Shown here one piece after another: positions 24,462-58,015 of a DNA stretch of 58,015 nt; position 1 is the first letter of the stretch, and every line of letters begins with the position of its first letter. Where the stretch lies: assembly GCA_017539045.1 (NCBI GenBank), contig JAFYHS010000008.1, positions 1 to 58,015 on the forward strand, read 5' to 3'. Made by a program: the position numbers and the translations under genes. The notes under the pieces were generated by a model. It saw only the letters and a program-made list of their open reading frames with translations, ran no database searches and had not been told where the DNA came from. The stretch comes from Bacteroidales bacterium (lineage in GTDB: Bacteria; Bacteroidota; Bacteroidia; Bacteroidales; F082).

Positions 24462-24494
24462 AATGTAATTGCTAACCGTAAATAACTTATCATC

Positions 24495-25592: not shown

Positions 25593-25619
25593 AACTGACG
25601 CCAGTTCGGAAATAATTCG

Positions 25620-25627
25620 TATCTTTG
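25620..25627 (+). promoter_or_regulatory. Promoter -7 element upstream of greA
   Basis: TATCTTTG, exact TAnnTTTG, 28 bp after the PorV-like stop. A terminator-like hairpin lies between it and greA. Confidence 0.6.
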
Positions 25628-25644
25628 CAGTCGCAAACAAAAGA

Positions 25645-25675
25645 AGACCCTTATTTCGGTAAGGGTCTCTTTTTT
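25645..25675 (+). terminator. Terminator-like hairpin in the greA leader
   Basis: Perfect 9-bp stem AGACCCTTA / TAAGGGTCT around TTTCGG, followed by C and six T. It may end the receptor/PorV-like operon. Because it lies downstream of the TATCTTTG element and 36 bp before greA, it may also act as an attenuator. Confidence 0.75.
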
Positions 25676-25710
25676 GCAACTTGTAACGAAACAAATATAA
25701 AACATTTATC

Positions 25711-26184: not shown

Positions 26185-26195
26185 TATTAGAGACT

Positions 26196-26588
26196 ATGGC
26201 TACCATTTTTTCGAGAATCATAGCAGGTGAGATCCCTTGCTACAAGATTGCAGAGGACGAACGTTTCTTCGCCTTTTTGGATATCAATCCCGTGATGAAA
26301 GGCCACACCTTGGTGGTGCCCAAACACGAGGATGACTACATTTTCAACCTCGACGACGACGAAATCGGCGCCATGATGGTCTTCGCCAAAAAAGTGGCCA
26401 AAGCCATCGAGAAAGCCGTGCCTTGCAAACGCATCGCCGTGGCCGTCATCGGCTTGGAGGTGCCCCACGCCCATATCCACCTCATCCCCATCACAAAAGA
26501 GGGTGACATGGACTTCAAAAAGGAGCATGTGCATCTGACACCAGAAGAGTTTGCAGAGGTGCAACAAAGCATCGTTGAGAACCTGTGA
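26196..26588 (+). CDS. HIT-family nucleotide hydrolase
   Basis: 130-aa histidine-triad protein of the Hint/protein-kinase-C-interactor branch, which hydrolyses AMP-linked compounds. The active-site triad is HAHIHLIPI with His91, His93 and His95. The N-terminal FSRIIAGEIPCYKIAEDERFFAFLDINP is the standard Hint start. It is cytoplasmic, directly follows greA by 12 bp, and ends in a strong terminator 2 bp after its stop codon. Confidence 0.95.
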   Translation: MATIFSRIIAGEIPCYKIAEDERFFAFLDINPVMKGHTLVVPKHEDDYIFNLDDDEIGAMMVFAKKVAKAIEKAVPCKRIAVAVIGLEVPHAHIHLIPITKEGDMDFKKEHVHLTPEEFAEVQQSIVENL

Positions 26589-26589
26589 T

Positions 26590-26617
26590 AAAAAAGCCGT
26601 TCAAAACGGCTTTTTTT
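26590..26617 (+). terminator. Rho-independent terminator after the greA-HIT operon
   Basis: Perfect 12-bp stem AAAAAAGCCGTT / AACGGCTTTTTT with a CAA loop and a seven-T run. The next promoter -7 element begins three bases after the T-run. Confidence 0.9.
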
Positions 26618-26619
26618 GT

Positions 26620-26627
26620 TATCTTTG
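26620..26627 (+). promoter_or_regulatory. Promoter -7 element for the T9SS plug gene
   Basis: TATCTTTG, exact TAnnTTTG, followed by CCG. It is 18 nt from the ATG at 26646, so the leader would be only about 12 nt. The -33 position falls inside the preceding terminator hairpin. Confidence 0.65.
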
Positions 26628-26645
26628 CCGAAAAATAACCACACA

Positions 26646-27917
26646 ATGAAACGAATCACCATATTGATACTGACGTTATGCATGGCCACGGGTTTGTTTG
26701 CCCAGGATTTCGATCTGCTCTGTAGCAACCTTAACTACAAGCCTCAGGTGCAGACCGTGTTGCTCTATGCCGACGACAACCAGCTGAACGATCCCATCGT
26801 ACCATTGGAAGACATGATGGGCAGGCTGACCCTCTCTTTCGACATCATCGACGGGGATGGCGAGGTGCTCAACTACACCTTCATCCATTGCACCCATGAC
26901 TGGATGCCTACCGACATGCAACGCATCCAATATGCTTCGGGTTTTGAGTCGGACCGCTTGGACGACTATGCCTTCTCGCGCAACACCTTGATCGATTACG
27001 TCAACTATCAGCTCAAGTTTCCCACCGAGGACATGATGCCTCTTGTTTCGGGCAATTACCTGCTTGTGGTTTTTGGCAACGACTTGAACGATGTGTATTT
27101 CACGCGTCGCTTTATGGTGGTCGACGAGAAGGCTCATGTGGGCGCTACCGTGCCGCGCTATCCCGACGATTTGGCACTCACCGACACCCATCAGCAGCTC
27201 GATGTCCGCGTAAACATGAATAGCTACCTGACGGGCAACACCCAGCAATACAGCTTCCTGAACATACGTCAGAATGGCCGTTGGGACAACGCTGCCATTG
27301 GCTTGAAACCCACCTATGTCTATCCGGATTATATCTCCTTTGAGCATCATCCCCAGACCGTTTTTGAGGCAGCCAACCAGTATCTCCGGTTCAATACCAG
27401 CAACTTCTATTTCCAGTCGGAAAACCTGGCCCATATCCGTCAAACCGACGAGAGCTTTGAAATCGACATCGCCACCTGCGAGTCGCGGGCGAGGAAGGCC
27501 TATATCTCCTATGAAGATATCCATGGCGAGAAATTCGTTTATGTGGAGAACGAAAACCTCGACAACAGCACGGAAGCCGATTATTGTCGTGTCAACTTCT
27601 TCTATAAGAGCGAGTCGCCGCTAACGCATGAGGACATCTATATCATGGGCGCCCTCAACGACTGGTGCTTCAATGAGAGCAACAAGATGACCTATGACTA
27701 TAAGCTGCGTGGTTATACCTGCTCGATGGTGCTCAAGCAAGGCTATTATAATTTCATGTTCGTCACCATCGACCGTAAGACCCATGAGATCATGACCGAC
27801 CTGACGGCGGGCAACCATTGGGAAACCAACAACGTCTACAAGCTGTATTTCTACTACTATAATGCCATCAAGGGCTACGATGAGTTGGTAGGCTATTCAG
27901 AGGTCAACTCGCATTAA
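26646..27917 (+). CDS. Type IX secretion system plug protein (DUF5103 family)
   Basis: 423 aa from the chosen start MKRITILILTLCMATGLFAQ; the longer frame to 26616 is rejected because it begins at or before the promoter. It matches the DUF5103/T9SS plug family, whose member in Flavobacterium johnsoniae was found closing the periplasmic side of the SprA translocon. Family features visible: an N-terminal domain with LLYADDNQLNDPIVPL and FIHCTHDWMPTDMQRIQYASGF, a middle NYLLVVF and RFMVVDE region, and the C-terminal MGALNDWCFNESNKM and LKQGYYNFMF segments. It stands apart from other secretion genes and is one base from priA, with which it must be co-transcribed. Confidence 0.9.
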   Translation: MKRITILILTLCMATGLFAQDFDLLCSNLNYKPQVQTVLLYADDNQLNDPIVPLEDMMGRLTLSFDIIDGDGEVLNYTFIHCTHDWMPTDMQRIQYASGFESDRLDDYAFSRNTLIDYVNYQLKFPTEDMMPLVSGNYLLVVFGNDLNDVYFTRRFMVVDEKAHVGATVPRYPDDLALTDTHQQLDVRVNMNSYLTGNTQQYSFLNIRQNGRWDNAAIGLKPTYVYPDYISFEHHPQTVFEAANQYLRFNTSNFYFQSENLAHIRQTDESFEIDIATCESRARKAYISYEDIHGEKFVYVENENLDNSTEADYCRVNFFYKSESPLTHEDIYIMGALNDWCFNESNKMTYDYKLRGYTCSMVLKQGYYNFMFVTIDRKTHEIMTDLTAGNHWETNNVYKLYFYYYNAIKGYDELVGYSEVNSH

Positions 27918-42741: not shown

Positions 42742-45700
42742 ATGAAAGGAAAATTTACAAAAATTATGGCAGCCTTGGCGCTGCTGGTAGGACTCACTAT
42801 CCCGATGGGGGTGTGGGGACAGACAAGTGTAACTTGGCCCGGAACGACCGCTCTCCCTGGTACGGCTACCCCTGTAGCAAATGATCAGAATGTTACCATC
42901 ATGGTTTCGTCTACCAACACTTATTCGAATCCTATTCGTATATATGCTAATACGACGGTAACGATTAATGCCAATAATGGTGCTATAATAACTAGTGTTG
43001 CGTACGAAGCCTCTTCAACGGGTAATTATGTTACTGTTGCTCAAAATGCAACTGTTTCACCAGAAGTGACTCCCTCGGTTAATGGAAAGATTGTGACGTG
43101 GACTTATGATGAAAGTGCCAATGTTACGGCATTTACTTTTACTCCTAGTGCTCAAACAAGAAGCAATGGAATTACTATAACTTACATTACTTCGGGTAGC
43201 ACTCCCACTTGCGCTACTCCTACCTTTAGCCCTGTTGCTGGCACTTACACCCAAGCTCAAAGCGTGAGCATCAGCTGCGCTACCGAAGGTGCCACGATTT
43301 ATTACACTACCAATGGTAACGATCCTACCACAAACAGCACGGTTTATGTCGATCCTATCAGTGTCAGTTCAAATATGACCATCAAGGCTATGGCTGTCAA
43401 ATCTGGATTTGACAACAGTGCTGTAGCAACTGCGGAATACGCTTTCATCACTTTAGACCATGCTGGCACACTGGAAGATCCTTACACTGTTGCTGATGCC
43501 TATACTGCCATCGATGCCAATGCTGGCACCCAAAACGTTTATGCCACAGGTATTGTTTCCAATATCGAGACCGCATGGAGCTCTCAATATAACAATATTA
43601 CCTTTAACTTCGTTGATGAAGAAGGTGATGAAGCTTTTCTGCAAGCCTTCCGTTGCGTTAGCGGTACTGGCGTAGACGCATCCACGGTTGTCGTTGGTGA
43701 TGTTGTTGTGGTTTATGGTGATTTGACCAAATATGGTTCGACATACGAATTCGGTCAAGGTTGCCAGCTGGTTTCATTGACGCATACTGCCGAACCTTTC
43801 ATCACAGTGAATCCTACCGAGGTCAATGTTGGCGCAGAAGGCGCAACTGGTACCCTTAGCGTGACATGCGAAAACATAGATGATACCTATGAGATTGGTG
43901 TTCGATTCTATGAAGATCCTCAAACCCCAGCAACGGATCCTGCCATCTACGAAGATTGGTTTGAAATTGTCCCTGCCGGAGGTTCATCTAATAATTTTAG
44001 TTATGAAGTGTTTTCCAATGAAGGTGACGCCCGTACAGCTTATCTGACAATTTGTGCCTTTGCTACTAATGGTGAAATGCTTACGGAATCCCAACTTGTC
44101 ACTTTCAACCAAGCCGCTTATGTGGCTCCCACCTTTGCTGAATTGCCCTTCTCATTTAATGGCGGTAAAGCGGCTGTTGAAGAGACGGATGGACTCTCAC
44201 AGGAAGGCCTTGGCACGGATTATGCTGAAAGTACTAATCCTACTACCAAACTTAAATTCGACAACACTGGCGACTGGTTGCTGCTCCAATTCAATGAGCG
44301 TCCCGGCACCCTCACCTACGACATCAAGAACAACAGCTTCTCTGGAGGTACTTTTAAACTACAGACTTCAGAAGACGGTGTTACATACACTGATTTGGAA
44401 ACTTACACTGAAATAACGGGAACCCAAAACGAAGAATTCACCGATTTGGGTGAAAACATCCGCTACATCAAGTGGATTTATACTAATAAAGTCTCTGGCA
44501 ATGTCGGCTTGGGCAACATCGCTCTCGCCAAATATGTAGAGCCTGTTCTTGTTCCTTCCATCACCGTCACTCCTACTGAGGTTAACATAAGCGCAGAAGG
44601 CACAACTGGTACCCTCACCGTGACATGTGAAAACATAGATGATACCTATGAGATTGGTGTTCGATTCTATGCAGATCCTCAAACCCCAGCAACGAATCCT
44701 GCCATCTACGAAGATTGGTTTGAAATCGTCCCTGCCGGAAGCTCATCTAATGATTTTAGTTATGAAGCATTCCCCAATGAAGGTGACGCCCGTACAGCTT
44801 ATCTGACAATTTGTGCCTTTGCCACTAATGGTGAAATGCTTACGGAATCCCAACTCGTCACCATCAACCAAGCCGCTTATGTGGCTCCTCCCACTTCCGG
44901 CAATTGGGTGTTGACCGACCTCGCCGATCTTACTTCTGGCGATGTGTTTGTGATTGTTGGCGTAGATAATGATACAGATGCTTCCTATGCTATGTCAAAT
45001 GACAAAGGCACTTCAAATGCTCCCACCGCCGTTGCAGTCACTATTGTTGACAACACCTTGTCATGTGAAATAGCCGACAACATTCAATGGAATCTTACCG
45101 TAAGCAATAGCGGTTATACGTTCTATCCTGCGGGTTCGGCCACTACTTGGTTGTATTGCACTAACACCAACAATGGCGTTCGCGTTGGATCTAATACTTT
45201 AAACACCTTTAAAGTTGATGCGGAATCAGGCTATCTGCAACATCAAGGCACATCTCGCTATGTTGGCTTATACACACCTAATGGAAGTTCCTCCGCACAA
45301 GACTGGAGGTGCTATACAAACACTACAGGTAACATAGCCAACCAATCCTTCGCTTTTTACAAGAAAGTCAGCGATGATGTTACCTACACTAAGTCTGTTG
45401 CTGCATACGAAGGTAATGGCGGTTATGTCTTGATTGCCTCGCCTGTTTGCTCGGTCGCTCCTACAGCCGACAATGGTTTCCTTACTAGTGAATACGATCT
45501 TTATGCCTTCGACCAAGCACAAGAGCAAGAATGGCGTAACTATGAGACCAGCAGTTTCAATCTCGTCTCTGGCAAAGGTTACATGTATGCTAGTAGCTCA
45601 GCTACCACTCTCACTATCACTGGTCAGCCATACAACGGCAATGGTATGATTCCCTTGGATTACACTGAGGGTGTTGCTTTCGCTGGCTGGAACCTGGTGG

Positions 45701-46494
45701 GTAACCCTTACGCCGTCGCTGCCACGCCTAATAAACCTTACTATAGACTTAATGCTGCAGGCAGTGAAGTGAGTGCTTCTACTGAGTCAAGTGTTGTCAA
45801 TGCCATGGAAGGTGTGTTTGTGGTTGCCACAGAGGCTGGCCAAACTGTTTCCTTCAGCACCACTAATTCCGGTAGCAAGGGTGAGAGCATCGCTCTCAAC
45901 GTGATGAAGGACCGTGGCACCGTCATCGACCGCGCCATCGTCCGCTTTGGTGAAGGCGAGCAGCTGCCTAAGTTCCAACTCTTCGAGAACAGCACCAAGC
46001 TCTATATCCCGCAGGGCAACAGCGACTACGCCATCGTTCGCAGCGCCGCCGAAGGCGAGATGCCCGTCAACTTCAAGGCCAAAGAGAACGGCACCTATAC
46101 CATCAGCGTCAATACCGAGAATGTCGAGATGGACTACCTCCACCTCATCGACAATATGACTGGCAATGATGTCGACCTGCTCCAGACCCCGAGCTACACC
46201 TTCGAGGCTACCACCCGCGACTACGCCTCGCGCTTCCGCCTGGTGTTTAACGCAAATGAGATGGACGGCCCTTCGACGGGCTCAGGGCCCTTTGCTTACT
46301 TCAACGGCAGCGAATGGCAGATCAGCAACATCGGTGAAGCCACCTTGCAGGTTGTCGACGTGATGGGCCGCATTGTGAAGAACGTTGCCCTTGAAGGCAA
46401 TGCCACGGTAAGCATCAACGAGATGCCTGGCGTTTATATGATGCGCCTCCTCAACGGCAATGATGTGAAAGTCCAAAAGGTAATAATCAAATAA
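42742..46494 (+). CDS. Multidomain secreted surface protein with T9SS tail
   Basis: 1250 aa with a signal peptide ending GVWGQ. A beta domain (~30-150) is followed by a chitobiase/beta-hexosaminidase C-terminal-like repeat (CATEGATIYYTTNGNDPTT, MTIKAMAVKSGF; ~155-235) and an OB-like segment (EDPYTVADAYTAIDANAG; ~245-350). Residues ~354-463 and ~607-716 are two near-identical Ig/BACON-like modules (TCENIDDTYEIGVRFY) separated by a discoidin-like domain (~470-600). Then come a ligand-type beta domain (~720-880), a GWNLVGNPY domain, and a type A T9SS tail (LQVVDVMGRIVKNV, VYMMRLLNG, ending VIIK). The stretch encoding GPSTGSGP just before the tail is a REP-type palindrome. No catalytic motif is seen; it may bind glycans or act as an adhesin. 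Confidence 0.87.
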   Translation: MKGKFTKIMAALALLVGLTIPMGVWGQTSVTWPGTTALPGTATPVANDQNVTIMVSSTNTYSNPIRIYANTTVTINANNGAIITSVAYEASSTGNYVTVAQNATVSPEVTPSVNGKIVTWTYDESANVTAFTFTPSAQTRSNGITITYITSGSTPTCATPTFSPVAGTYTQAQSVSISCATEGATIYYTTNGNDPTTNSTVYVDPISVSSNMTIKAMAVKSGFDNSAVATAEYAFITLDHAGTLEDPYTVADAYTAIDANAGTQNVYATGIVSNIETAWSSQYNNITFNFVDEEGDEAFLQAFRCVSGTGVDASTVVVGDVVVVYGDLTKYGSTYEFGQGCQLVSLTHTAEPFITVNPTEVNVGAEGATGTLSVTCENIDDTYEIGVRFYEDPQTPATDPAIYEDWFEIVPAGGSSNNFSYEVFSNEGDARTAYLTICAFATNGEMLTESQLVTFNQAAYVAPTFAELPFSFNGGKAAVEETDGLSQEGLGTDYAESTNPTTKLKFDNTGDWLLLQFNERPGTLTYDIKNNSFSGGTFKLQTSEDGVTYTDLETYTEITGTQNEEFTDLGENIRYIKWIYTNKVSGNVGLGNIALAKYVEPVLVPSITVTPTEVNISAEGTTGTLTVTCENIDDTYEIGVRFYADPQTPATNPAIYEDWFEIVPAGSSSNDFSYEAFPNEGDARTAYLTICAFATNGEMLTESQLVTINQAAYVAPPTSGNWVLTDLADLTSGDVFVIVGVDNDTDASYAMSNDKGTSNAPTAVAVTIVDNTLSCEIADNIQWNLTVSNSGYTFYPAGSATTWLYCTNTNNGVRVGSNTLNTFKVDAESGYLQHQGTSRYVGLYTPNGSSSAQDWRCYTNTTGNIANQSFAFYKKVSDDVTYTKSVAAYEGNGGYVLIASPVCSVAPTADNGFLTSEYDLYAFDQAQEQEWRNYETSSFNLVSGKGYMYASSSATTLTITGQPYNGNGMIPLDYTEGVAFAGWNLVGNPYAVAATPNKPYYRLNAAGSEVSASTESSVVNAMEGVFVVATEAGQTVSFSTTNSGSKGESIALNVMKDRGTVIDRAIVRFGEGEQLPKFQLFENSTKLYIPQGNSDYAIVRSAAEGEMPVNFKAKENGTYTISVNTENVEMDYLHLIDNMTGNDVDLLQTPSYTFEATTRDYASRFRLVFNANEMDGPSTGSGPFAYFNGSEWQISNIGEATLQVVDVMGRIVKNVALEGNATVSINEMPGVYMMRLLNGNDVKVQKVIIK
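43801..44129 (+). repeat. Direct repeat unit A within the surface protein gene
   Basis: About 329 bp, nearly identical at DNA level to 44560-44888, for example the shared run GATGATACCTATGAGATTGG and the encoded EDWFEIVPAG and TESQLVT segments. This indicates a recent intragenic duplication of one Ig-like module. Confidence 0.85.
44560..44888 (+). repeat. Direct repeat unit B within the surface protein gene
   Basis: Second copy of the module at 43801-44129, with scattered substitutions (for example YEDPQ to YADPQ, GGSSNN to GSSSND). Confidence 0.85.
46267..46289 (+). repeat. REP-type palindrome inside the surface protein frame
   Basis: GGCCCT (46267-46272) pairs with AGGGCC (46284-46289) around TCGACGGGCTC. 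This resembles the widespread CTTCGACAAGCTCAGG bacterial repeat. It is read in frame as GPSTGSGP. Confidence 0.7.
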
Positions 46495-46833: not shown

Positions 46834-49623
46834 ATGAAAAGAGTTTTATTATCTTTGATTTTGCTGACGATGCTCCCCGCTTTGGCCATGGCCGAACACG
46901 TCGAGTCCGCCCGCGCCCAGCAGGCCGCCAAGACCTTCTTCAACAACAATGGCGTGAACGCCAACAAACTCACCGACCTTTCGGCAGAGTCTGGCTTTAC
47001 TAACCTATACATCTACAATGCCGACAAAGGCTTTGTGGTGATGGCCGCCGACGACCGCGTGCAACCCGTGTTGGGCTATTCGCTGACGGGTAGCTTCGAC
47101 CCCGATGCGATGCCCGACAATGTGCGCGCCTGGCTGCAGGGCTATAACGACGAGATACAATACATCATTGATAACCGACTGTCGGCCGAACCCGAAGCCA
47201 CCCGACAATGGAATGCCTACGCCAAGGGCGAAACTATGGCCAAGGCAACCGTGATGGTGGAGCCTTTGCTGTCTACCCAATGGGATCAAGGAGACCCTTA
47301 TAACCAGCAGTGTCCTACCGTCAATGGCTCAGAAACCTATTCCGGTTGTGTGGCCACTTCGATGGCGCAGATTATGAAATACTGGAACTGGCCTATCCAA
47401 GGCAATAGCTCCCACTCGTATACATGGAATGGCCAGAGCCTTAGCGCAAATTTCAGTACTACGACATACGATTGGTCCAATATGACTGACACCTATGACT
47501 GGAACAGCACCGAGGTAGAGGAGACGGCCGTGGCCACCTTGATGTACCACTGCGGAGTGTCGGTAGATATGAGTTATGGTACCGATGGCAGCGGCGCCTA
47601 TTCCACCGATATTCCTTCGGCATTGACCAATTACTTCCGATACAATAATAGTGTTAGCTCACATAGCAAACCCAGCTTTAATACAAATAATTTCATTAGT
47701 TCCCTGAAAACGGAACTTGATAATGCAAGACCTATCCAATACAGTGGTAGTGGCACAGGTGGTGGCCACGCTTTCGTTTGCGACGGCTACGACGACAGCG
47801 ACTATTTCCACTTCAACTGGGGGTGGAGCGGCATGTATGATGGCTATTTTAAGGTCAGCAATCTGAATCCTGGTACAGGGGGCTCGGGCTCTGGTTCATC
47901 AGGTACCTATAACAGCCGTCAAGCAGCGGTTTATCCCATTTATCCTAACTACGGCATTAGCAATGCGCCATCGGGGCTCACGGCTACCTTGGTCCAAGAT
48001 ATTTCGACCCGTAATGTAAACTTGAGTTGGAGTTCCCTTTCGGGTGCATCTTCCTACCAAGTGTTCAGAAATGGCCGTTTGATAGGCACCGCATCTTCCA
48101 CCACCTACGTCGACGAAGCCGCTCCCTACGGTGATAATGAGTATTGCATTAGAGGTGTTACCTCGAGCAACGGCATCTCACCATATTCCACAAAGGTTCC
48201 TGTAAGCATTTCTTTTGCGGCACCTACAAACTTGAGAGCCTCTGTCGAAGAACGACTCTTTACCGTTTCTTGGGATGCAGCCGACTTGGCGGTATCATAC
48301 AATTTGTATTGTAATGACAGAATCATCGGATCGGAATTGACTTCAACGTCAATTACTTTCACTTTAAAAGTTTATGGCGACCTAACCTTTTATGTGAAAG
48401 GTGTTGATTATCATGGCGACTTGTCTGAAGCTTCCAATGATTCTGAAACGTTGTTCCAGGAATTCTATGGTCCCTTGGTGGATTTGACGGCTACTATTGA
48501 GGATAATGACGTCACCTTAAGCTGGGATGCCTTGGAAAGCGATACTGGATCCATCTCCCAATTGGGCGGATATGGTGGTGGTATATATGGCTCTAGCCTT
48601 TCAAGTAATGGAGCCTATTGGGCGCTGCGTTTTCCGCCTTCAGAATTGTCCTTCTATGCAGGTATGGCAGTTTTGGAAGTTGAGTCCTGGTTCTATGAGG
48701 CGGGCACTTATCAGGTCTCCATTTACCAAGGTACCAATAATGATGCTCCCGCTGGGTCGCCAATTGCCACGACTTCCAAAACGCTTGCAGCTCAAGCCTC
48801 TTGGCAGACCTTCACTTTTGACAACCCTGTGCTTATTGACCATACCAGGGACTTATGGGTTGTCTTCTATTCCAGTAATGTGAGTATGTTGTTACTGGCC
48901 GACATGGAAAACCCGTATGCCGACTACTATTCTACCAATGGAACCACTTGGAATCACGCCACGGGTTGCACATGGATTGTTTATACTGTGATCTCTGACG
49001 GCAACTACTCCTATAACCTCTACAGAAACGGCGAAGCCATTGCAAGCAATATGACCACCACGTCGTATACTGATAACGATTTGGGCATTGGTACATACGA
49101 GTACTACGTCAAGACCAATTATTATGGCGGTGAGTCAGCAGCTTCCAATGTCGTAAGCTTTGAGATTGCTGATCAGGCCATTCCTCTCGGTGCTGGTTGG
49201 AACTGGTGGGCGCCTATTGTAGTGACTGACAATATGCTGGATCAACTACAACATGCCCCCGGGGTGCTGCTCATCACGTCGCAAAGTGGTGATCCTGTTA
49301 GCAGTATTGTTCCGGGACAGATGTACAAGATTCAGACTTCCGAAACCGTTAACCTTAATATGATAGGTGTCGTTGCCGATCTCAACACGCTTGAAATCAC
49401 CATCGCTCCTGACATCAACTGGTTCGGCTATCCCGGCAAGACGGCACTAAACATCAACGCAATGAACATCACGCCTGCCGATGGCGATAAGATTATCTCG
49501 CAGGACGAAGGCTTTGCTACCTACCAAAACGGTGCCTGGACGGGCACCCTCACCATGCTGCAACCAGGACAAGGTTATATTTATGTGTCGGTTGCGCAAG
49601 AGAACAAGACGCTGAGGTTTTGA
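46834..49623 (+). CDS. Secreted C10-family (streptopain-like) cysteine protease with WNWW tail
   Basis: 929 aa with a signal peptide ending ALAMA. Residues ~20-125 are a Spi_C10-type propeptide (ARAQQAAKTFFNNNGVN, NADKGFVVMAADDRVQPVLGYS). The peptidase domain has the nucleophile in YSGCVATSMAQIMKYWNWP (Cys172) and general base His312 in GGGHAFVCDGYDD, followed by FHFNWGWSGMYDGYF. Fibronectin-III-like domains follow at ~375-560 (SNAPSGLTATLVQD, YQVFRNGRLIG), interrupted by a beta domain at ~570-715. Residues ~783-929 are the duplicated WNWW/WFGYPG module also found at the ends of the next two proteins. It has its own promoter. It is similar to the interpain/PrtT-type proteases of oral Bacteroidales. 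Confidence 0.93.
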   Translation: MKRVLLSLILLTMLPALAMAEHVESARAQQAAKTFFNNNGVNANKLTDLSAESGFTNLYIYNADKGFVVMAADDRVQPVLGYSLTGSFDPDAMPDNVRAWLQGYNDEIQYIIDNRLSAEPEATRQWNAYAKGETMAKATVMVEPLLSTQWDQGDPYNQQCPTVNGSETYSGCVATSMAQIMKYWNWPIQGNSSHSYTWNGQSLSANFSTTTYDWSNMTDTYDWNSTEVEETAVATLMYHCGVSVDMSYGTDGSGAYSTDIPSALTNYFRYNNSVSSHSKPSFNTNNFISSLKTELDNARPIQYSGSGTGGGHAFVCDGYDDSDYFHFNWGWSGMYDGYFKVSNLNPGTGGSGSGSSGTYNSRQAAVYPIYPNYGISNAPSGLTATLVQDISTRNVNLSWSSLSGASSYQVFRNGRLIGTASSTTYVDEAAPYGDNEYCIRGVTSSNGISPYSTKVPVSISFAAPTNLRASVEERLFTVSWDAADLAVSYNLYCNDRIIGSELTSTSITFTLKVYGDLTFYVKGVDYHGDLSEASNDSETLFQEFYGPLVDLTATIEDNDVTLSWDALESDTGSISQLGGYGGGIYGSSLSSNGAYWALRFPPSELSFYAGMAVLEVESWFYEAGTYQVSIYQGTNNDAPAGSPIATTSKTLAAQASWQTFTFDNPVLIDHTRDLWVVFYSSNVSMLLLADMENPYADYYSTNGTTWNHATGCTWIVYTVISDGNYSYNLYRNGEAIASNMTTTSYTDNDLGIGTYEYYVKTNYYGGESAASNVVSFEIADQAIPLGAGWNWWAPIVVTDNMLDQLQHAPGVLLITSQSGDPVSSIVPGQMYKIQTSETVNLNMIGVVADLNTLEITIAPDINWFGYPGKTALNINAMNITPADGDKIISQDEGFATYQNGAWTGTLTMLQPGQGYIYVSVAQENKTLRF

Positions 49624-51377
49624 ACCATAATGCCTTGAAACGGCACCTTACCATATTGTTTTTATCAGTCAGCCTCATTGGCGTTTCGCAGATTCCCAAC
49701 GGATACTACAACCAAGCCAACGGCAAGACGGGCGACGCACTGAAAGTGGCCTTGCATGACATCATCAAGGGGCACACTACGGTCTCGTACAGTAATCTTT
49801 GGGACGCCTTCTGGAGTACCGACAACAAAGGCGACGGTGTCGTGTGGGACATGTATTCCGACGTCCCTGGTGGAATGCCTCCGTATACCTACCAATTGGG
49901 AGAGGGTCAATGCGGAGAATACAATTCCGAAGGTGATTGCTATAATCGCGAGCATTCGTGGCCAAAGAGCTGGTTCGGTAGTCAAACCACCCCTGAATGC
50001 GATTTGCATCACATTTTCCCTACCGATGGCTTTGTAAACCAAAAACGAGATAACTATCCCTTTGGAAAAGTTCAGTCCGCCACATGGACCTCACAAAACG
50101 GTTCAAAACTGGGTACTTGCAAAGCATCGTTAGGCTATTCGGGCACTGTGTTTGAGCCAATTGACGCCTACAAGGGCGACTTCGCCCGCGCCCTCATGTA
50201 CATGAGCGTTCGTTACTATGGCGAAGACAGCAATTGGGGCAGCAGCGACATGACCAACAAGTCGGAAATCTTGCCTTGGGCCATTGCCATGCTCATGGAC
50301 TGGAACGAGCAAGACCCTGTGAGTCAGAAGGAAATCGACCGTAACAATGCCATTTACACTGATTATCAGCATAACAGAAATCCTTTTGTCGACCATCCCG
50401 AGTATGCTCGTATGATTTGGGATCCTGATTGGCAAGGTGGTGGTGGCAGCGGCGGCAACACGGGCAATGGTGACTACGTAAAAGTCACAACCGCACCGAC
50501 GGACTGGAGTGGTGAGTATCTGCTTGTGTATGAGAACAATGCTACATCAGGATATGTCTGGACGGGAGTGGATGCTGCAAACTGTTTTCAGGAGGCTGCA
50601 ATAACGGATTATTCGATAGAGGATAATGGATTTGTAACCATTATTATTGCTCCAATGTCGGGTGGTTATTCTATCCGGATTAATGGTGGAACCAATGACG
50701 GAAAATATATCTATGGGCAATCGGGAAACAACACTATAAGATTTGGGACTTCGGCTTCTTTGAACACCTTGGAATACGAGTCTGATTGGGTGAAAATCAC
50801 CTCCAACACTTCCGTGATGCGGTTCAACAAAGCTGCCAGCGAAATGCGTTTTCGCTATTACAAAGCAGCTTCTTATTTGAATAACAATATTGAATCCGTT
50901 CAACTCTATAAGAAAACAGATGGCCAAACCGTTGAGCAGAGCATTGCCTTGGCTCAAGGTTGGAACTGGTGGGCGCCGACGGTGGAAACGACCCTTGAGG
51001 CGCTGCAGACGGCTCTCGGCAACACGCTTATGCAGATCAAGTCGCAGGACGGAACACCTACCGAGCTTGTTCTCGGGCAGATGTACAGGATTCAGGCCAA
51101 CGCTGCTTGCGAAATCTCGTTAAGTGGCGCACCTGCCGGCAATGTCACGATTAACATTACATCGGGCTGCAACTGGTTTGGTTATCCAGGCACGGAGTCG
51201 TTGTCCCTTGATGACCTTGACATCAGTCCAACGACAGGCGACAAGGTCGTCTCGCAGGATGGCGGTTTCGCTGTATACAACGGCACGGCGTGGAAAGGTA
51301 CGCTCACGAGCCTTCAACCGGGTAAGGGATATGTGTATGTTTCGGTGGATAATCAATCGAAGACGTTGACATTCTGA
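49620..51377 (+). CDS. Secreted endonuclease I family nuclease with WNWW tail
   Basis: 585 aa. No ATG is available: the frame starts with TTG at 49620, overlapping the previous stop (TTGA), or TTG at 49635, which gives MKRHLTILFLSVSLIGVSQ, a better signal peptide. Residues ~25-265 are endonuclease I/extracellular DNase (GYYNQANGKTGDALKVALHDII near 27; CYNREHSWPKSWFG and ECDLHHIFPTDGFVN, with the catalytic His and metal ligands; NRNPFVDHPEYARMIW). A Gly-rich linker leads to a beta domain (~283-430, YVKVTTAPTDWSGEYLLVYE). Residues ~442-585 are the duplicated WNWW/WFGYPG tail. Translational coupling to the C10 protease suggests joint digestion of protein and DNA. Confidence 0.93.
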   Translation: MNHNALKRHLTILFLSVSLIGVSQIPNGYYNQANGKTGDALKVALHDIIKGHTTVSYSNLWDAFWSTDNKGDGVVWDMYSDVPGGMPPYTYQLGEGQCGEYNSEGDCYNREHSWPKSWFGSQTTPECDLHHIFPTDGFVNQKRDNYPFGKVQSATWTSQNGSKLGTCKASLGYSGTVFEPIDAYKGDFARALMYMSVRYYGEDSNWGSSDMTNKSEILPWAIAMLMDWNEQDPVSQKEIDRNNAIYTDYQHNRNPFVDHPEYARMIWDPDWQGGGGSGGNTGNGDYVKVTTAPTDWSGEYLLVYENNATSGYVWTGVDAANCFQEAAITDYSIEDNGFVTIIIAPMSGGYSIRINGGTNDGKYIYGQSGNNTIRFGTSASLNTLEYESDWVKITSNTSVMRFNKAASEMRFRYYKAASYLNNNIESVQLYKKTDGQTVEQSIALAQGWNWWAPTVETTLEALQTALGNTLMQIKSQDGTPTELVLGQMYRIQANAACEISLSGAPAGNVTINITSGCNWFGYPGTESLSLDDLDISPTTGDKVVSQDGGFAVYNGTAWKGTLTSLQPGKGYVYVSVDNQSKTLTF

Positions 51378-51393
51378 TAGAAGGGTTTCTCGG

Positions 51394-51497
51394 ACACGGT
51401 GTCCTTGGGTATGTGGTGCGAGTAGGCATGTCATACCGAGCCCCTTAGGGCGAGTGTATCTATGCCTGCGGCTTGCTATTTATGTCCCTTTCCCCTT
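51394..51497 (+). repeat. Interspersed hairpin repeat, copy 2
   Basis: Starts ACACGGTGTCCTTGGGT and ends GCTTGCTATTTATGTCCCTT, then TCCCCTT. Arms GTAGGCAT (51422-51429) and ATGCCTGC (51462-51469). The region between them is self-complementary (GAGCCCCTTAGGGCGAG). Same orientation as copy 3. Confidence 0.8.
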
Positions 51498-51554
51498 GAT
51501 GGGAAAGGAACCAAAGGATCAAGGCCGCCTTCATCGGACCTCCCCGCGGCCGTC

Positions 51555-51634
51555 TAAGGGCCTGACCCTCAGGTCGCGGAGTGCCTTCTGCGAAGGCAAA
51601 CGACAAGCGCCGCTCCGTGAGGGTCAAGCCCTTA
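51555..51634 (+). ncRNA. Highly structured GC-rich intergenic element (possible structured RNA or mobile repeat)
   Basis: The 514-bp gap 51378-51891 holds no credible gene. Between two direct repeats lies a large inverted repeat: arms at 51555-51571 and 51618-51634 pair over 17 bp with one mismatch. Inside it CGGAG pairs with CTCCG, and a perfect GCCTTC/GAAGGC hairpin lies at 51583-51597. Open frames crossing it differ in every frame and look like repeat shadows. Whether it is transcribed is unknown; it could equally be a DNA-level mobile repeat. Confidence 0.5.
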
Positions 51635-51710
51635 GCCGTCCCTTGCGGGCGCTTCCCCGCCCGGCGGCCGGTCCCACGCGCCCATCCCAGTCGAGGTTGG
51701 GCGTTCCCGC

Positions 51711-51808
51711 ACACGGTGTCCTTGGGTGTGCAATGCAAGCAGGCATGTCATACCGACCGAGGGAGTGTATCTATGCCTGCGGCTTGCTATTTATGTCCCT
51801 TTCCCCTT
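51711..51808 (+). repeat. Interspersed hairpin repeat, copy 3
   Basis: Begins ACACGGTGTCCTTGGGT like copy 2 and shares the TGCAATGCAAGCAGGCATGT run with copy 1. Arms GCAGGCAT (51739-51746) and ATGCCTGC (51773-51780). It ends CTATTTATGTCCCTTTCCCC, then TT. Confidence 0.8.
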
Positions 51809-51863
51809 AAGGCCAAAAACATAAAAAACAAACACATTTTGTCTTGCGAGTCAACATTTTTCG

Positions 51864-51871
51864 TACCTTTG
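51864..51871 (+). promoter_or_regulatory. Promoter -7 element for the M14 peptidase gene
   Basis: TACCTTTG, exact TAnnTTTG, followed by CATG and 20 nt upstream of the ATG at 51892. It argues against the longer frame beginning at 51844. Confidence 0.6.
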
Positions 51872-51891
51872 CATGTTTATTTTTTAAGAAA

Positions 51892-54264
51892 ATGAAGCTT
51901 TTACGTTTTGTATGCCTTTTTTGTGCTGCTATCCTTGGTGGCACAACCATGGCTCAGAGCCAGAGAGAACTCCAACAACTGATGCGTGACCGCGGTGAGT
52001 ATTACTTCACCCTCAGCGTCGACGACCCCGCCCAGATACATGAACTCAGCCGTATTTGCTCTGTCGACGGCACAGACGGCCGTAATGTAGTGGCCTACGC
52101 CAACCAGCAGGAATACGACAAACTCATCGCCTTGGGATTCCAACCCGAGTTGCAGACCCCGCCTTGTATGCTCCACGATGCCGTTATGTGGGATGGTAGC
52201 AATCGATCTTCGTATGCGTGGGACAGTTACCCAACTTATGATGCATACCAAAACATGATGGAAGCCTTCCCTGAACAAGCTTTGAGCGATCGTTCTTGTA
52301 CACTTCTAGACCTTGGAACTTTGAATAGCGGGCGCAAAATTCTTGGTGTTCGCCTGAATAACGGACAACCTAATGGAAAGCCAAAATTCCTGTATAGTTC
52401 TACTATGCATGGTGATGAGGTAACGGGTATGATGCTCATGTTAAGGCTCATTGACGAATTCTGTACTAGTAATGACCCTCGTATTGTCAATCTCTTGAAT
52501 AATATAGATCTCTTCATATTCCCTTTGACCAATCCCGATGGCACGTATTATGGCGGCAACAATACCATGAATCAGGCTCGTAGATACAATAATAATGGAG
52601 TGGATTTAAACCGTAACTATAAGGATTATCACAGAGGCGATCATCCTGACGGGAATAGTTATGCTTTAGAGACGCAATGGACCATGCAGTTGGCAGACGA
52701 GTATTTGTTCACAATGAGCGCCAACTATCATGGTGGTGCCGAGGTGGCAAACTATCCTTGGGACGCTATTGATGACAGACATCCTGACGATGCCTGGTAT
52801 CAATACATTTGTCTGGACTATGTCAGTCGTGCTAGAGCGGTTTCTTCATCCTATATGAAAGATCCTTTTTCCAACGGCATCACTAATGGTGCAGACTGGT
52901 ATGTGATTACTGGTAGTCGTCAGGATTATGAGAATGCCTACGGCCAATGTCGTGAAATTACAATGGAATGTTCTAGTACAAAGAAACCCAATGCCTCTAC
53001 CATGCCGACCTATTGGAACTATAACCATAATGCCATGTTGGGACTTTTGGAACAGTGCTTGAATGGTGTTCATGGTGTGGTGCGTGACGCCGACACAGGT
53101 GAACCTATTGAAGGTGTGAAGGTGACCGTGCTCAACCACGACAGTGAGACTTCTTTTGTCACCACGCATTCCGTGGGTGATTTCCATAGGCCTATCAAAG
53201 GCGGCACCTATACCTTCGAATTCTCTAAAGATGGTTTTTGCACCGAGAAAACGAATGTGACTGTTTCCGATGGCCAACGGGAGGATGTTGATGTCTTTCT
53301 ATTCCCCGAAGGCAATTGCCCGGTTACTATGGAATGCTATGAACAAGTGAGTCCTTCAGCCGCGGGCTCCTATGTGATGGGCTACCTCAACGGTTCAACT
53401 CTTTTGATGCCAACTCACAATGGCAGCTCAACAGCAAACGCTACCTCTGTTGATGTGACTCCGACTGAGAATGGTTTTTCTGTGGAAGAAGAAACACTTA
53501 CTGGTTTATACACTTTGACGGCATACGGAAATGGTCAGTATTATATCTCGTATAACGGACGGTATTTAGCAAAAACCAACTATGGCAGTAGCCTTACATG
53601 GGGGACTTCCACAAGCCAATACGGCAGATGGCATATTGATAATAATGGTATTTATGTAACTTCATCAAGTGGCATGGGAGGCAGCTCCACGTATTATTTA
53701 TTCTTCGACACCAACAGCAACTCTTTCAAGCTTAGCACAACTCAACACAACAACATCACTTTCTACCAAGAAGGCGATTGCCCCACCACGGTAGCCCTCA
53801 ATGATGAATGGAACTGGTGGACGCCCACCATTGAAATGTCGCTTGAAGACCTTGAGACAGCCCTTGGCGGCAACGCCATCCTCATCAATTCGCAAGATGA
53901 GGGCTTCGCCCGCTATGATGGTGAAGGCTGGAGCGGCACCTTGACGGAGATTGAACCTGGACAGATGTACCGTGTCCTGACTACCGCAGCAACGGAATTC
54001 ACCTTGAACGGCGCGGCCGTGACCTCTGCAATCACCATCCTCCCGGGTTACAACTGGTTTGGCTACACGGGCTCGCAGTCGAAGACGATCTCTGCCGCTT
54101 TCAGTGGATTCACGCCCACCGAGGACGACACCATTACCGCAGAGGACGGTACTTCCGCCACTTACACCAATGGCAGTTGGGATGATAACTTCATCCTAAT
54201 GCCAGGTCACGGCTACGTGTACCACTCCAACGCCCAAGAAAGCCGTAACATTACTTTTGAATAA
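51892..54264 (+). CDS. Secreted M14 zinc carboxypeptidase with WNWW tail
   Basis: 790 aa from MKLLRFVCLFCAAILGGTTMAQS. Residues ~25-125 are a propeptide-like region. The M14 catalytic domain (~125-390) has zinc ligands His173 and Glu176 (STMHGDEVTGMM) and His280 (SANYHGGAEV), substrate residues GVDLNRNYKDYH, and the catalytic Glu359 (REITMECSS). A carboxypeptidase-regulatory-like domain (~395-475, GVVRDADTGEPIEGVKVTVLNHD) follows, then a beta domain (~500-625, YVMGYLNGSTLLMP, YYISYNGRYLAK). Residues ~634-790 carry the duplicated module (NDEWNWWTPTIEM, then GYNWFGYTG) common to the two upstream hydrolases. It is cell-surface or extracellular. It has its own promoter and is 19 bp from the next protease gene, likely in the same operon. 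Confidence 0.94.
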   Translation: MKLLRFVCLFCAAILGGTTMAQSQRELQQLMRDRGEYYFTLSVDDPAQIHELSRICSVDGTDGRNVVAYANQQEYDKLIALGFQPELQTPPCMLHDAVMWDGSNRSSYAWDSYPTYDAYQNMMEAFPEQALSDRSCTLLDLGTLNSGRKILGVRLNNGQPNGKPKFLYSSTMHGDEVTGMMLMLRLIDEFCTSNDPRIVNLLNNIDLFIFPLTNPDGTYYGGNNTMNQARRYNNNGVDLNRNYKDYHRGDHPDGNSYALETQWTMQLADEYLFTMSANYHGGAEVANYPWDAIDDRHPDDAWYQYICLDYVSRARAVSSSYMKDPFSNGITNGADWYVITGSRQDYENAYGQCREITMECSSTKKPNASTMPTYWNYNHNAMLGLLEQCLNGVHGVVRDADTGEPIEGVKVTVLNHDSETSFVTTHSVGDFHRPIKGGTYTFEFSKDGFCTEKTNVTVSDGQREDVDVFLFPEGNCPVTMECYEQVSPSAAGSYVMGYLNGSTLLMPTHNGSSTANATSVDVTPTENGFSVEEETLTGLYTLTAYGNGQYYISYNGRYLAKTNYGSSLTWGTSTSQYGRWHIDNNGIYVTSSSGMGGSSTYYLFFDTNSNSFKLSTTQHNNITFYQEGDCPTTVALNDEWNWWTPTIEMSLEDLETALGGNAILINSQDEGFARYDGEGWSGTLTEIEPGQMYRVLTTAATEFTLNGAAVTSAITILPGYNWFGYTGSQSKTISAAFSGFTPTEDDTITAEDGTSATYTNGSWDDNFILMPGHGYVYHSNAQESRNITFE

Positions 54265-54283
54265 ATAACAAACATAACATACG

Positions 54284-57200
54284 ATGAAAAAAGTACTATT
54301 CTCACTATTGCTTCTTGCCTTCGGCCTGAGTGCCATGGCACAACAGATACAACTGCGTTCCGCCGACAAGGCCGAATGTGTGAAGAGCGACATGACAAGC
54401 CTCAAGGCCTCGTTCTCCTTCTCCACCATCAAGGCGGAGGACGTGGAGAGCGAACGTGGCACTTTCTCGTGGCTCTCGATGGCCAACACCGTCATCGGAG
54501 GCAACGAAGGCGAGCCCCAAATCCCCGTTGTCAACCAATTGATTGCCGTTCCTTTCGGTGCACAGCCGCGCATCGAGATTACGAGCTACAGCACGACGGA
54601 CTATCGTCTCGAAGACCTTGGCATCCACACCTTGGTGCCGCGTCAGCCTTCGATTCGTAAGGACAAACGTCCCGAGGATGTGCCCTTTGTCATGAACGAA
54701 GCCGCCTACCAGACCCGTGGCTTGCGTTCTGAACCCACAGCGACTGTCAGTGTGGAAGGTACGATGCGTGGCGTACAACTTGGCACGATGACCATCGAGC
54801 CTGTCAGCTACGACCCCGTCAACAACACCCTGCGCGTGTTCAACGACATCGAGGTAGAGGTGCACTTCGACGGCGCCGACGCCCAAGCCACAGAGGATAT
54901 GCTGTTGAGGACCTATAGCCCAGCTTTCGACAACGTCTATGCTCAATTGTTCAACAACAGAGCCATAACAGATGTTTATACCGACCACCCTGACCTGTAC
55001 AACACACCAGTCAAGATGCTGGTGATCTGTTATTCGGGCTTCCAAGGCAATGCCGCCCTTGAGAGTTGGCTGCAATGGAAGCTTCAGAAGGGCTATTATG
55101 TCGATATCTACTACACTAGTGAGACAGGTACTACAGCAAGCGCCATCGCTTCTTTCATCAAGACAAAATACAACGCTTCCGTTTCGGCCGGCAACGCCTA
55201 CACCTATCTCATTGTCATTGGCGACACGGGACAAGTCCCGCAATACATGACCAAGACAGTTGACGAACAGTGTGCCTCTGACCTCGGTTATTCAAGTGTC
55301 AATTTCTCGTCAAGTACGAGCAACTACTTCCCCGACATGTACTACAGCCGTATGTCGGTGGAGAACACTACGCACCTGACCAACTATATCAACAAAGTGC
55401 TGACCTACGAGAGATATGAGTTCACCGATGGCGGTAACTACCTGAACAACGTTATTCTCGTCGGCGGTTGGGATTCGAGTTGGACAGCCAGAGTGGCCAA
55501 ACCCACCATCAACTATGCTACGAACTATTACTTCAAGTCAAGCAACACCACCTATGGTGGCTTTGAAAACGGCACTATCAGTGCCACAGTGTCAACAAGC
55601 TCGACACAGGGTTATTCTGGAACGAACAACGGTTGCTATAATGGCATCAACAACGGTGTGTGCTTCCTGAACTACACCGCACACGGCGACAAGCAGGAAT
55701 GGTATCAGCCTAAAATGACTGCTGCCCATGTGGCCACGCTTACCAACACGGGCAAGTATTTCTTTGGCGTGGGTAACTGCTGCCTGACAGGTAACTTCAA
55801 CAATACCTCGACAACCTATTCACCTGGCTCTGCCATAGGCACCAACGCCTGTTTTGCGGAAACCATGATTCGTGTTCCCAATGCCGGTGCCGTTGCCTAC
55901 GTTGGCTGCTCGCCCTATTCCTATTGGTATGAGGACTTTTATTGGGCAGTTGGAGCACATTCCTACTCGGCAGGCAACTACCCGACTCAATCGGCTTCTT
56001 CAAAAGGTGTATATGATATTATGTTTGAAGACCAATACTGGAATTCGGCATCTTCACTGCTGTATCTTGGCAATCTCGCCGTGCAACAAGCTGTTACCAA
56101 TGGTAACACTACTAGCGGAATCACCGATGGCAACTGCAACAACTCGGCCCACTATTACTTCCAGTTCTACCACACCTTTGGCGATGGTTCCGTGATGCCT
56201 TACATCACCAAACCCGAAGTGAACACCGTGACGATACCCAGCACGGTCACCCCGGGTACCACCTCCATCACTGTTAATGCCTTGGCGGGTTCATACGTCG
56301 CTGTCACCGACAACAGCTCGGTCATCTACGGCGTTGCCGAGGCCAACTCGTCGGGAGTGGCCACCGTGAACTTTACCAATGCCATCCCCAGCAGCGGCAC
56401 GCTTTATGTGGTCGTCACCCGCCAGCAATACCAGCCCTATTTTGGCACCATTAGCATCGTGGGTGGCACACAATACACCATCACCGCCACGGCCAACCCG
56501 ACTAACGGCGGTACTGTCAGTGGCACAGGGCAGTATTACGGGAATACCTCCTGCACGCTGGCCGCCACGGCCAACACGCAATACGAGTTCGTCAACTGGA
56601 CGAAGAATGGCTCTCAGGTTTCTACCGATAACCCATATACCTTCACCGTAACGGGCAACTCTACATACGTGGCCAACTTTGTAGTTTTGACACCTCATAC
56701 CGTGAACTGTGCCACAGTGGAGAATGGTAGCATCAGCGCCAGCCCCACCACGGCCTACAAGAACGAGATTGTCACGCTGACGGCCACGCCCGCTTCGGGT
56801 TACTTCTTCTCGGCATGGGACGTGCGCGACGCCAGCAACAATCCCATCACGGTGACCGACAACCAATTCACCATGCCCGACAGCGATGTTACTGTCAGCG
56901 CCACCTTCGTCAGCGGCTGCACCGTCACCGTCGCTGAGGTGGAGCACGGCACGGTCACAGCTACGCCCATGGGTGCTGTCCCTGGCACGACCATCACGTT
57001 GACGGCCACACCCGACACAGACTACTTCCTGAGCACATGGCTCGTCTTCAAGACGGGCGATGTGAATACCGCCGTGACTGTGACGAACAACCAGTTCGCC
57101 TTGCCCGCATACGACGTGACCGTTGTCGGCATCTTCAAGCTGCCACAAGAAGAGAACATTATCGTTGGAAGCGACGGAGAATCTTATGCATATTTGCCTA

Positions 57201-58015
57201 CTTATTCCTATTGGAAATACAACTTTTCACAACAGATTTACACCGTTTCTGAAATCGGACAAGCTGGTACAATTACAGCAATTGCATTTAAGAATCCTAC
57301 TGCAAACTCTACTTCGAGAAATTTGGACGTTTATCTTGCCCATACTTCCAAAACGAGTTTTACCAGTAATAACGATTGGGTTGCCATGAATGCGTCTAGT
57401 AAGGCGTTTTCAGGTAATGTCGAGTTTTTGGCTAATGGCTGGACCACTATTACTCTAGACACTCCCTTTGAGTATAATGGTCAAAACAATTTGATTGTAT
57501 GTGTTGACGATAACACTGGATCATACATATCTAGTTCAAGTTCACCAAATTTCAACATCTATACCACAAGTACACAAACATCCATCTATGCATACAACGA
57601 CAACACAAACTATAATCCCGCTTCCATGAGCGCATCAGGAAGTCGTGTCAAGAACAACAACCAAATCACCTTCACAATTTCTGTGCCCAGTAACAACGCT
57701 TCGCTGGCCGTTGCGCCCAACGCCATGGACGGCTTCACCTATGCAGAAGGTGATGGTCCATCGGTGGTGAAGAGTGTGGCTGTCATCGGAGTCGACCTCT
57801 CGGGCGACATCACCGTGACCGCGCCCGACGACTATGAGGTCAGCGATGCGGAAAACGGCACCTACGGCAACACAGTTACCCTCGCCGCCGGCAACCGGGG
57901 CAACCGCGAGACGCTTACCTACGACTTCGAGGACGGCTGGCAGAACTGGACCACGTTCCAAGGCTCGACCACCTCGCCGCACAGCTGGATGCACAACACG
58001 GAATATACGGCATAC
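54284..58015 (+). CDS. Gingipain-like C25 cysteine protease, 3' end outside window
   Basis: An open frame of 1244 codons from ATG 54284 to the window end with no stop. The signal peptide MKKVLFSLLLLAFGLSAMAQ is followed by a gingipain-type propeptide (~22-235, GEPQIPVVNQLIAVPFGAQPRIEI). The C25 peptidase domain (~240-610) has catalytic His467 in NYTAHGDKQEW and Cys500 in GNCCLTGNF, followed by NACFAETMIRVPNAGAVAYVG, as in the gingipain CxxGxF...CFAE arrangement. An Ig-like domain (~640-725), three divergent InlB-type B-repeats (~730-952, NPTNGGTVSGTGQYYGNTSC), a beta domain (~957-1130), and the start of a cleaved-adhesin/MAM-like domain (YDFEDGWQNWTTFQGS) follow. The expected sorting tail lies beyond the window. 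Confidence 0.93.
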   Translation, partial: MKKVLFSLLLLAFGLSAMAQQIQLRSADKAECVKSDMTSLKASFSFSTIKAEDVESERGTFSWLSMANTVIGGNEGEPQIPVVNQLIAVPFGAQPRIEITSYSTTDYRLEDLGIHTLVPRQPSIRKDKRPEDVPFVMNEAAYQTRGLRSEPTATVSVEGTMRGVQLGTMTIEPVSYDPVNNTLRVFNDIEVEVHFDGADAQATEDMLLRTYSPAFDNVYAQLFNNRAITDVYTDHPDLYNTPVKMLVICYSGFQGNAALESWLQWKLQKGYYVDIYYTSETGTTASAIASFIKTKYNASVSAGNAYTYLIVIGDTGQVPQYMTKTVDEQCASDLGYSSVNFSSSTSNYFPDMYYSRMSVENTTHLTNYINKVLTYERYEFTDGGNYLNNVILVGGWDSSWTARVAKPTINYATNYYFKSSNTTYGGFENGTISATVSTSSTQGYSGTNNGCYNGINNGVCFLNYTAHGDKQEWYQPKMTAAHVATLTNTGKYFFGVGNCCLTGNFNNTSTTYSPGSAIGTNACFAETMIRVPNAGAVAYVGCSPYSYWYEDFYWAVGAHSYSAGNYPTQSASSKGVYDIMFEDQYWNSASSLLYLGNLAVQQAVTNGNTTSGITDGNCNNSAHYYFQFYHTFGDGSVMPYITKPEVNTVTIPSTVTPGTTSITVNALAGSYVAVTDNSSVIYGVAEANSSGVATVNFTNAIPSSGTLYVVVTRQQYQPYFGTISIVGGTQYTITATANPTNGGTVSGTGQYYGNTSCTLAATANTQYEFVNWTKNGSQVSTDNPYTFTVTGNSTYVANFVVLTPHTVNCATVENGSISASPTTAYKNEIVTLTATPASGYFFSAWDVRDASNNPITVTDNQFTMPDSDVTVSATFVSGCTVTVAEVEHGTVTATPMGAVPGTTITLTATPDTDYFLSTWLVFKTGDVNTAVTVTNNQFALPAYDVTVVGIFKLPQEENIIVGSDGESYAYLPTYSYWKYNFSQQIYTVSEIGQAGTITAIAFKNPTANSTSRNLDVYLAHTSKTSFTSNNDWVAMNASSKAFSGNVEFLANGWTTITLDTPFEYNGQNNLIVCVDDNTGSYISSSSSPNFNIYTTSTQTSIYAYNDNTNYNPASMSASGSRVKNNNQITFTISVPSNNASLAVAPNAMDGFTYAEGDGPSVVKSVAVIGVDLSGDITVTAPDDYEVSDAENGTYGNTVTLAAGNRGNRETLTYDFEDGWQNWTTFQGSTTSPHSWMHNTEYTAY

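Follow-up and report, generated by a model that had tools for sequence, protein, structure and literature searches.

A C10 protease, an endonuclease I and an M14 carboxypeptidase that are encoded in succession by a rumen lineage of Bacteroidales all end in one module of about 150 residues, and we consider it about an even bet (probability roughly 0.5, judged from sequence) that in these clades a surface module has taken over the terminal T9SS sorting or anchoring role. The module arose by duplication, is the last domain of proteins that carry Sec-type signals by a simple rule, changes places with the type A tag among orthologous enzymes, and is found alongside T9SS genes.

The available portions of two papers describe T9SS tags as C-terminal and as falling into several families, namely types A, B and C (PMC10202324, PMC10994853), and they have the type A tag binding in a pocket, plastic and for the most part hydrophobic, to which both SprA and PorV contribute (PMC10202324, PMC10994853). 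A conserved Lys close to the C-terminus of type A tags is also reported (PMC10994853). The list of known tags in an earlier reading of this DNA from its letters alone (the sequence-only reading) named types A and B and omitted type C, which is included in the available text of PMC10202324.

The module and its two halves

The window (the whole stretch of 58,015 nucleotides that was analysed) belongs to an assembly, here called G000, of 2.36 Mb in 43 contigs that is 81% complete. The C10 protease, endonuclease I, M14 carboxypeptidase and a C25 protease are encoded by four genes in a row, the last of which leaves the contig (Table 1). When the tails of the first three proteins were aligned, those of the second and third were 50% and 40% identical to the C10 tail, with 41 invariant columns; the sequence-only reading that the three proteins share one terminal module is therefore upheld. 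A profile of 148 positions built from these three tails matched its own sources at E 2.7e-80 to 2.6e-72, as follows from its construction, and found four more sites in G000 (E 4.4e-48 to 1.9e-25), which brings the genome to seven modules, one of them internal.

Table 1. Positions in the window of the hydrolase genes, the module halves and a related domain
Feature	Position	Strand	Remark
GWNLVGNPY domain in 1250-aa type A protein	45391..45978	+	distant module relative (hhalign)
C10 protease gene (Spi inhibitor prodomain + C10)	46834..49623	+	Sec signal; module at end
C10 protein, module half 1, short form	49168..49389	+	half boundary taken from alignment
C10 protein, module half 2	49390..49620	+	runs to stop codon
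Endonuclease I gene	49620..51377	+	Sec signal, non-ATG start; module at end
Endonuclease I protein, module half 1, short form	50934..51146	+	alignment, profile
Endonuclease I protein, module half 2	51147..51374	+	runs to stop codon
M14 carboxypeptidase gene	51844..54264	+	Sec signal; module at end
M14 protein, module half 1, full form	53782..54027	+	alignment, profile
M14 protein, module half 2	54028..54258	+	stops one residue short of stop; structure modelled
C25 (gingipain-type) protease gene	54284..58015	+	cut by contig end

The two halves had been proposed to descend from one ancestral unit, and this was confirmed by hhalign, in which half-1 and half-2 profiles drawn from 62 modules proved homologous (probability 98.5, E 2.3e-15); the tandem is thus a duplication, with half 1 shortened in the C10 and endonuclease I proteins and complete in the M14 protein. 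The structure predicted for the M14 module consists of two small beta-rich domains (pLDDT 92, pTM 0.81). Compared with solved structures, this model gave no significant match, and no T9SS tag was among the fold matches listed; folds of the cupin or jelly-roll type came up in the searches with weak similarity. The GWNLVGNPY domain of the 1250-aa protein, which had been suggested as a distant relative, is indeed one by hhalign (probability 92, E 6e-7), but it is longer than the module (196 residues as cut for hhalign) and in the window protein it is internal, ahead of a type A tag.

The module had also been taken to lack a family assignment, and Pfam and NCBIfam scans of the three window proteins agree with this, as no family covers it; the sole overlapping entry was NfeD on the M14 protein (E 0.087, below the NfeD cut-off). 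When the ends of 21 terminal members from several genomes were scanned against NCBIfam and Pfam, the matched families lay upstream of the module wherever positions were checked, and in 10 rescanned end stretches all matches at E<=0.001 finished by residue 142 of about 300, ahead of the module.

The type A tag folds as a seven-stranded Ig-like beta-sandwich. The type A CTD (PF18962 / TIGR04183) resembles the module in being C-terminal, in its occurrence on Sec-signal hydrolases and in being interchanged with it in four enzyme families; unlike that CTD, the module is about twice as long, is made of two homologous halves and is predicted to form two small beta domains. Its dissimilarity to type A, claimed earlier from the absence of the usual motif, was borne out: neither TIGR04183 nor PF18962 matched the three window proteins, and hhalign of each half against a profile of 18 type A tails from G000 gave probabilities of 0.3 and 0.6, that is, no kinship. 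The type A and type B models (TIGR04183, PF18962, TIGR04131, PF13585) were likewise absent at E<=10 from the matches listed for the 21 terminal members, for which the NCBIfam list was complete and the Pfam list comprised 25 of 29 families. The existence of types B (PF13585 / TIGR04131) and C (ChiA) shows that T9SS tags do not all belong to a single family (PMC10202324). The NCBIfam scan of the 21 terminal members gave no match of type C (ChiA-type), in a library that may not hold a ChiA-type model.

Ordinary T9SS cargo is abundant in G000, with 134 TIGR04183 matches (132 above cut-off), part of them on apparently duplicated contigs. On the contig pairs C10/C13, C27/C41 and C5/C19, TIGR04183 matches with identical scores are present on both contigs (for example C10:7883-8083 and C13:4883-5083), which suggests that sequence is duplicated within the assembly. 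C10 protease matches in this 2.4-Mb genome number 15 at E<=1e-40, with at least one pair on duplicated contigs, and a same-genus relative has up to 17, so that C10 peptidases are expanded in this genus of rumen bacteria.

Exchange of the module and the type A tag

In all eight same-genus endonuclease I orthologues with a complete end, a type A tag follows straight after the catalytic domain, which is 75-82% identical to that of the window gene; a ninth orthologue is cut. The junction reads YA(R/D)MIWDPxW, and from it the proteins of G000 and G204 (84%) continue with an extra domain and then the module, so the unit exchanged in endonuclease I includes a further domain upstream of the module. 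Two genomes, G199 and G205, each have a type A version as well as a module version of the enzyme. In a tree of endonuclease I made by a quick method (31 rows), four tail changes were counted, with two rows that have neither tail omitted from the count, and well-supported branches demand three of these; the rows that branch deepest end in a type A tail or in neither. The corresponding M14 tree (31 rows) has two tail changes. The further domain of the window's endonuclease I, at about 50460-50930 between catalytic part and module (DYVKVTTAPTDWSGEYLLVYE...), was swapped along with the module and has a weak Pfam match only (SPP1_Dit, E 0.043).

The C25 gene of the window runs off the contig, and its relatives in G199, G204 and G200 (same genus, C25 domain 92-100% identical) all three have the module as their C-terminus. 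Gingipains are C25 enzymes. The gingipain RgpB is a type A cargo (PMC10202324). The window's C25 gene is a mosaic with respect to that of G199 (locus L230), the DNA being 96.6% identical over 1652 bp, where the C25 domain is 100% identical as protein, and then 71.8% identical over 1557 bp, and this suggests that the catalytic part was recently transferred or recombined.

Complete homologues of endonuclease I, M14, C10 and C25 enzymes in the fetched loci amount to 130 distinct proteins, of which 40 end in the module, 83 in a type A tag and 7 in neither. A search with the module biases its loci towards module tails; loci obtained from enzyme searches alone were counted separately, and their 109 homologues comprised 23 with the module, 79 with type A and 7 with neither. 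These tail counts refer to fetched loci only, which are those nearest to the window (for C10 above all, the genomes have many more matches than these), and 22 cut homologues were excluded from them (2 endonuclease I, 4 M14, 14 C10 and 2 C25). Type A tails were scored with our own model, made from 18 type A tails of G000; it is not fully sensitive, since two C25 rows (L242 and L245) that it scored as having neither tail resemble type A on visual inspection. By this model 7 of the 130 complete homologues have neither tail, which indicates that a terminal tag is not strictly required.

Position, export signals and T9SS genes across the phylum

The module is far from always terminal. A first set of loci contained 126 distinct module proteins, of which 68 were terminal, 52 internal and 6 undecidable, where terminal means that the module ends no more than 20 residues from the stop in the protein, tail and signal counts, and no more than 25 in the tree of 145 modules described below. 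By our own type A model, none of the 68 terminal-module proteins has a type A tail, and 48 of the 52 internal-module proteins end in one. Internal modules are mostly followed by 200-250 residues that form an unnamed domain, and then by the type A tag. This unnamed domain was seen between module and tag at many loci, L028, L032, L039 and L072 included, and in nearer loci it carries the motif NMxVIAVVELDGEELRSDxYELAAFVGDECRGSAR.

In an enlarged set of 145 modules covering profile positions 10 to 135, from which 6 modules with a cut end were left out, 72 are terminal, near-duplicates included (L082 and L210 are one module), and 73 are internal, 62 of the latter with a type A tail. Sorting was therefore not the ancestral function of the module, and its older place in the phylum was probably inside large exported proteins, ahead of the unnamed domain and then a type A tag. 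Frequent internal occurrence had been named in the sequence-only reading as evidence against a sorting module, and for the wider family it is what was found. The proposal of a distinct C-terminal sorting or anchoring module thus stands for enzymes such as those of the window, where the module is at the extreme C-terminus of Sec-signal hydrolases and replaces type A in orthologues, but it fails as a general statement. Given how often the wider family is internal, any sorting role must be a derived one, restricted to certain clades; in the internal proteins, moreover, the module must be insufficient by itself or unused, because 62 of 73 have a true type A tag.

Terminal position is confined to particular clades and has more than one independent origin. 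A tree of the 145 modules (quick method) requires 10 changes between terminal and internal position, against a mean of about 48 when positions are shuffled, and at least 5 of them are forced by well-supported branches; the three modules of the window lie in a wholly terminal clade of 41 rows (SH-aLRT 97). Beyond this clade, all 11 modules fetched from G004, a member of another family of the order with 15 matches reported in its genome, are terminal, a few terminal modules are found in G040 and G072, and those at L263, L267 and L275 belong to one further family in the phylum sample. At one locus (L026), near-identical modules are present in adjoining genes, and while one of them is terminal the other precedes a type A tag; since the neighbouring copy carries that tag too, the module need not suffice for sorting. 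Many of the loci fetched with the module come from rumen and ruminant-gut Bacteroidales assemblies. The module is not universal in the window's genus, as a same-genus genome that is 99% complete (G101) has zero modules and 93 type A tails.

Sec signals were found in all 40 terminal-module proteins with an uncut N-terminus, one of them flagged as a possible lipoprotein, by a heuristic and not by SignalP. When a simple rule was applied alike to several sets of proteins, signals were scored in 42 of 47 terminal-module proteins under the strict form of the rule and in 47 of 47 under the loose form, in 91 (strict) and 95 (loose) of 98 type A proteins, and in 127 (strict) and 191 (loose) of 405 other ORFs.

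G000 itself has matches to SprA and PorV. In the order sample, SprA was present in 40/40 module genomes and in 187/198 genomes overall (hypergeometric 0.078), and PorV, which was counted in this sample only, in 190/198. In the phylum sample SprA was present in 32/32 module genomes and in 304/395 overall, and the corresponding hypergeometric value of 1.5e-4 is inflated and carries little weight because many of the SprA-less genomes are close relatives. Occurrence in genomes devoid of a T9SS had been named as a further point against a sorting role; no module was found in a SprA-less genome of the order (198) or the phylum (395) sample, a test of little power. Co-occurrence with the T9SS was dropped as proof; SprA is near-universal among the sampled genera (166/171).

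A type B tag would be expected to have a cognate PorP/SprF gene beside it; a PorV/PorQ-family gene in the window is about 21 kb upstream and does not adjoin the module genes. It is one of the T9SS genes held by positions 19824-27917, which encode a 1545-aa protein with a PorZ-like end (NF052228, below cut-off), the PorV/PorQ-family protein (NF033709, 144 bits) and a T9SS plug protein; the first two are possibly a PorZ/PorQ-like pair.

What the terminal module may do

The account that we favour begins with a beta domain of about 75 residues, of which the module is a tandem duplicate. In the rumen Bacteroidales lineage of the window, and independently in some others, the module has come to stand last in exported hydrolases whose C-terminus is otherwise a type A tag. 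Most likely, enzymes with a terminal module would cross the inner membrane by Sec, after which the folded C-terminal module would be recognised, instead of a type A tag, by the T9SS translocon, in which SprA would act with PorV or with a PorV/PorP-like candidate carrier; the enzymes, perhaps after cleavage, might then be released or kept on the cell surface. An exported peptidase without a tag is expected to remain in the periplasm, and just 7 of 130 complete homologues have neither tail. It is most economical to suppose that in these clades the work of the tag is done by the module. In its broader form, this makes the module a further class of T9SS sorting or anchoring signal, unrelated in sequence to type A, which would derive from a penultimate surface module promoted to the terminus and would repeatedly have replaced type A in rumen Bacteroidales, on C10, C25 and M14 peptidases as well as on endonuclease I, with parallels in other Bacteroidota lineages; we would put this a shade below an even chance. 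Several observations weigh against the favoured account: the many internal copies that have a type A tag of their own, the pair of modules in L026, the terminal copies that are one strand short, the lack of profile kinship to type A, the further domain exchanged in endonuclease I, the homologues with neither tail, and G101, which manages without the module.

The main rival, which is possible if somewhat doubtful, is that the module is a domain for binding or surface retention, with a glycan, the cell envelope or a partner protein as its target, and that export depends on a signal elsewhere or on another route. An older role other than sorting is indicated by the half or so of the family that is internal, mostly with a type A tag, and the adhesin-type domains that precede the module in certain terminal members (choice-of-anchor J in 3, Cleaved_Adhesin, LRR_5) are in keeping with binding, which the weak cupin or jelly-roll-type likeness of the predicted structure would also suit. 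On the other hand, no other recognisable sorting tag was found in the end stretches of the 21 terminal members scanned with NCBIfam and Pfam or, by our own type A model, in all 68, and the module occupies the exact place of the type A tag of orthologues. The choice-of-anchor J domain (NF038128), seen upstream in 3 of the 21 terminal members and ending about 5 to 55 residues before the module, is a neighbour of the module and not the module itself. Domains of this kind stand ahead of differing tags for surface attachment or sorting, and a module in the position of a tag would fit this arrangement.

Alternatively, the terminal forms could be remnants left by the loss of some 210 C-terminal residues, the type A tag among them, and the enzymes could now be periplasmic. 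Distant members with the order module, unnamed domain and type A tag would yield a terminal form by just such a loss, and some terminal ends are one strand short: the copies in L230, L231, L017, L024, L005 and L023 end in YVYxRQ(Q), a conserved variant end with the last strand absent. This explanation is nevertheless improbable, in that the 41-row clade with all three window modules (SH-aLRT 97) is wholly terminal, the module is common to adjoining enzymes of four families, and endonuclease I received it in exchange for a directly attached type A tag and not via truncation, which makes simple loss of a tag less likely. Directly after the YVYxRQ(Q) ends, a G+C-rich hairpin with a T run, resembling a terminator, is present in 6/6 loci. 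A frameshift origin of these ends was rejected; the other frames show no last strand within 57 bases downstream.

That the module is instead a known T9SS tag, of type A, B or C, which has diverged beyond the reach of the models, is very improbable, for although it shares their position and a beta-rich end, and K or R stands at the aligned last-strand column in 31/38 terminal versus 7/19 internal copies (p 0.0012, post hoc and uncorrected for kinship), hhalign to the type A profile reaches a probability of just 0.3-0.6, the matches at E<=10 listed for 21 terminal members (NCBIfam, and 25 of 29 Pfam families) include no T9SS model, and most internal copies are accompanied in their protein by a type A tag that is distinct and genuine.

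The module was not found described in our searches of the open-access literature on T9SS tags and CTDs, on sorting domains of rumen Bacteroidales or on novel secretion signals. It is unnamed, occupies the position that the type A tag has in related enzymes, and may be an overlooked tag for export or surface attachment. If secretion is indeed its function, some T9SS cargo of uncultured gut Bacteroidales escapes the models now in use, for none of the sorting-domain models matches the three window enzymes. A proposal based on translocon structures holds the binding pocket to be plastic, and has the conserved motifs of type A tags determine the fold of the tag and not its contacts (PMC10994853). 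If the reading preferred here is true, that proposal would be put to the test, and an unrelated domain serving as a tag would be a strong case.
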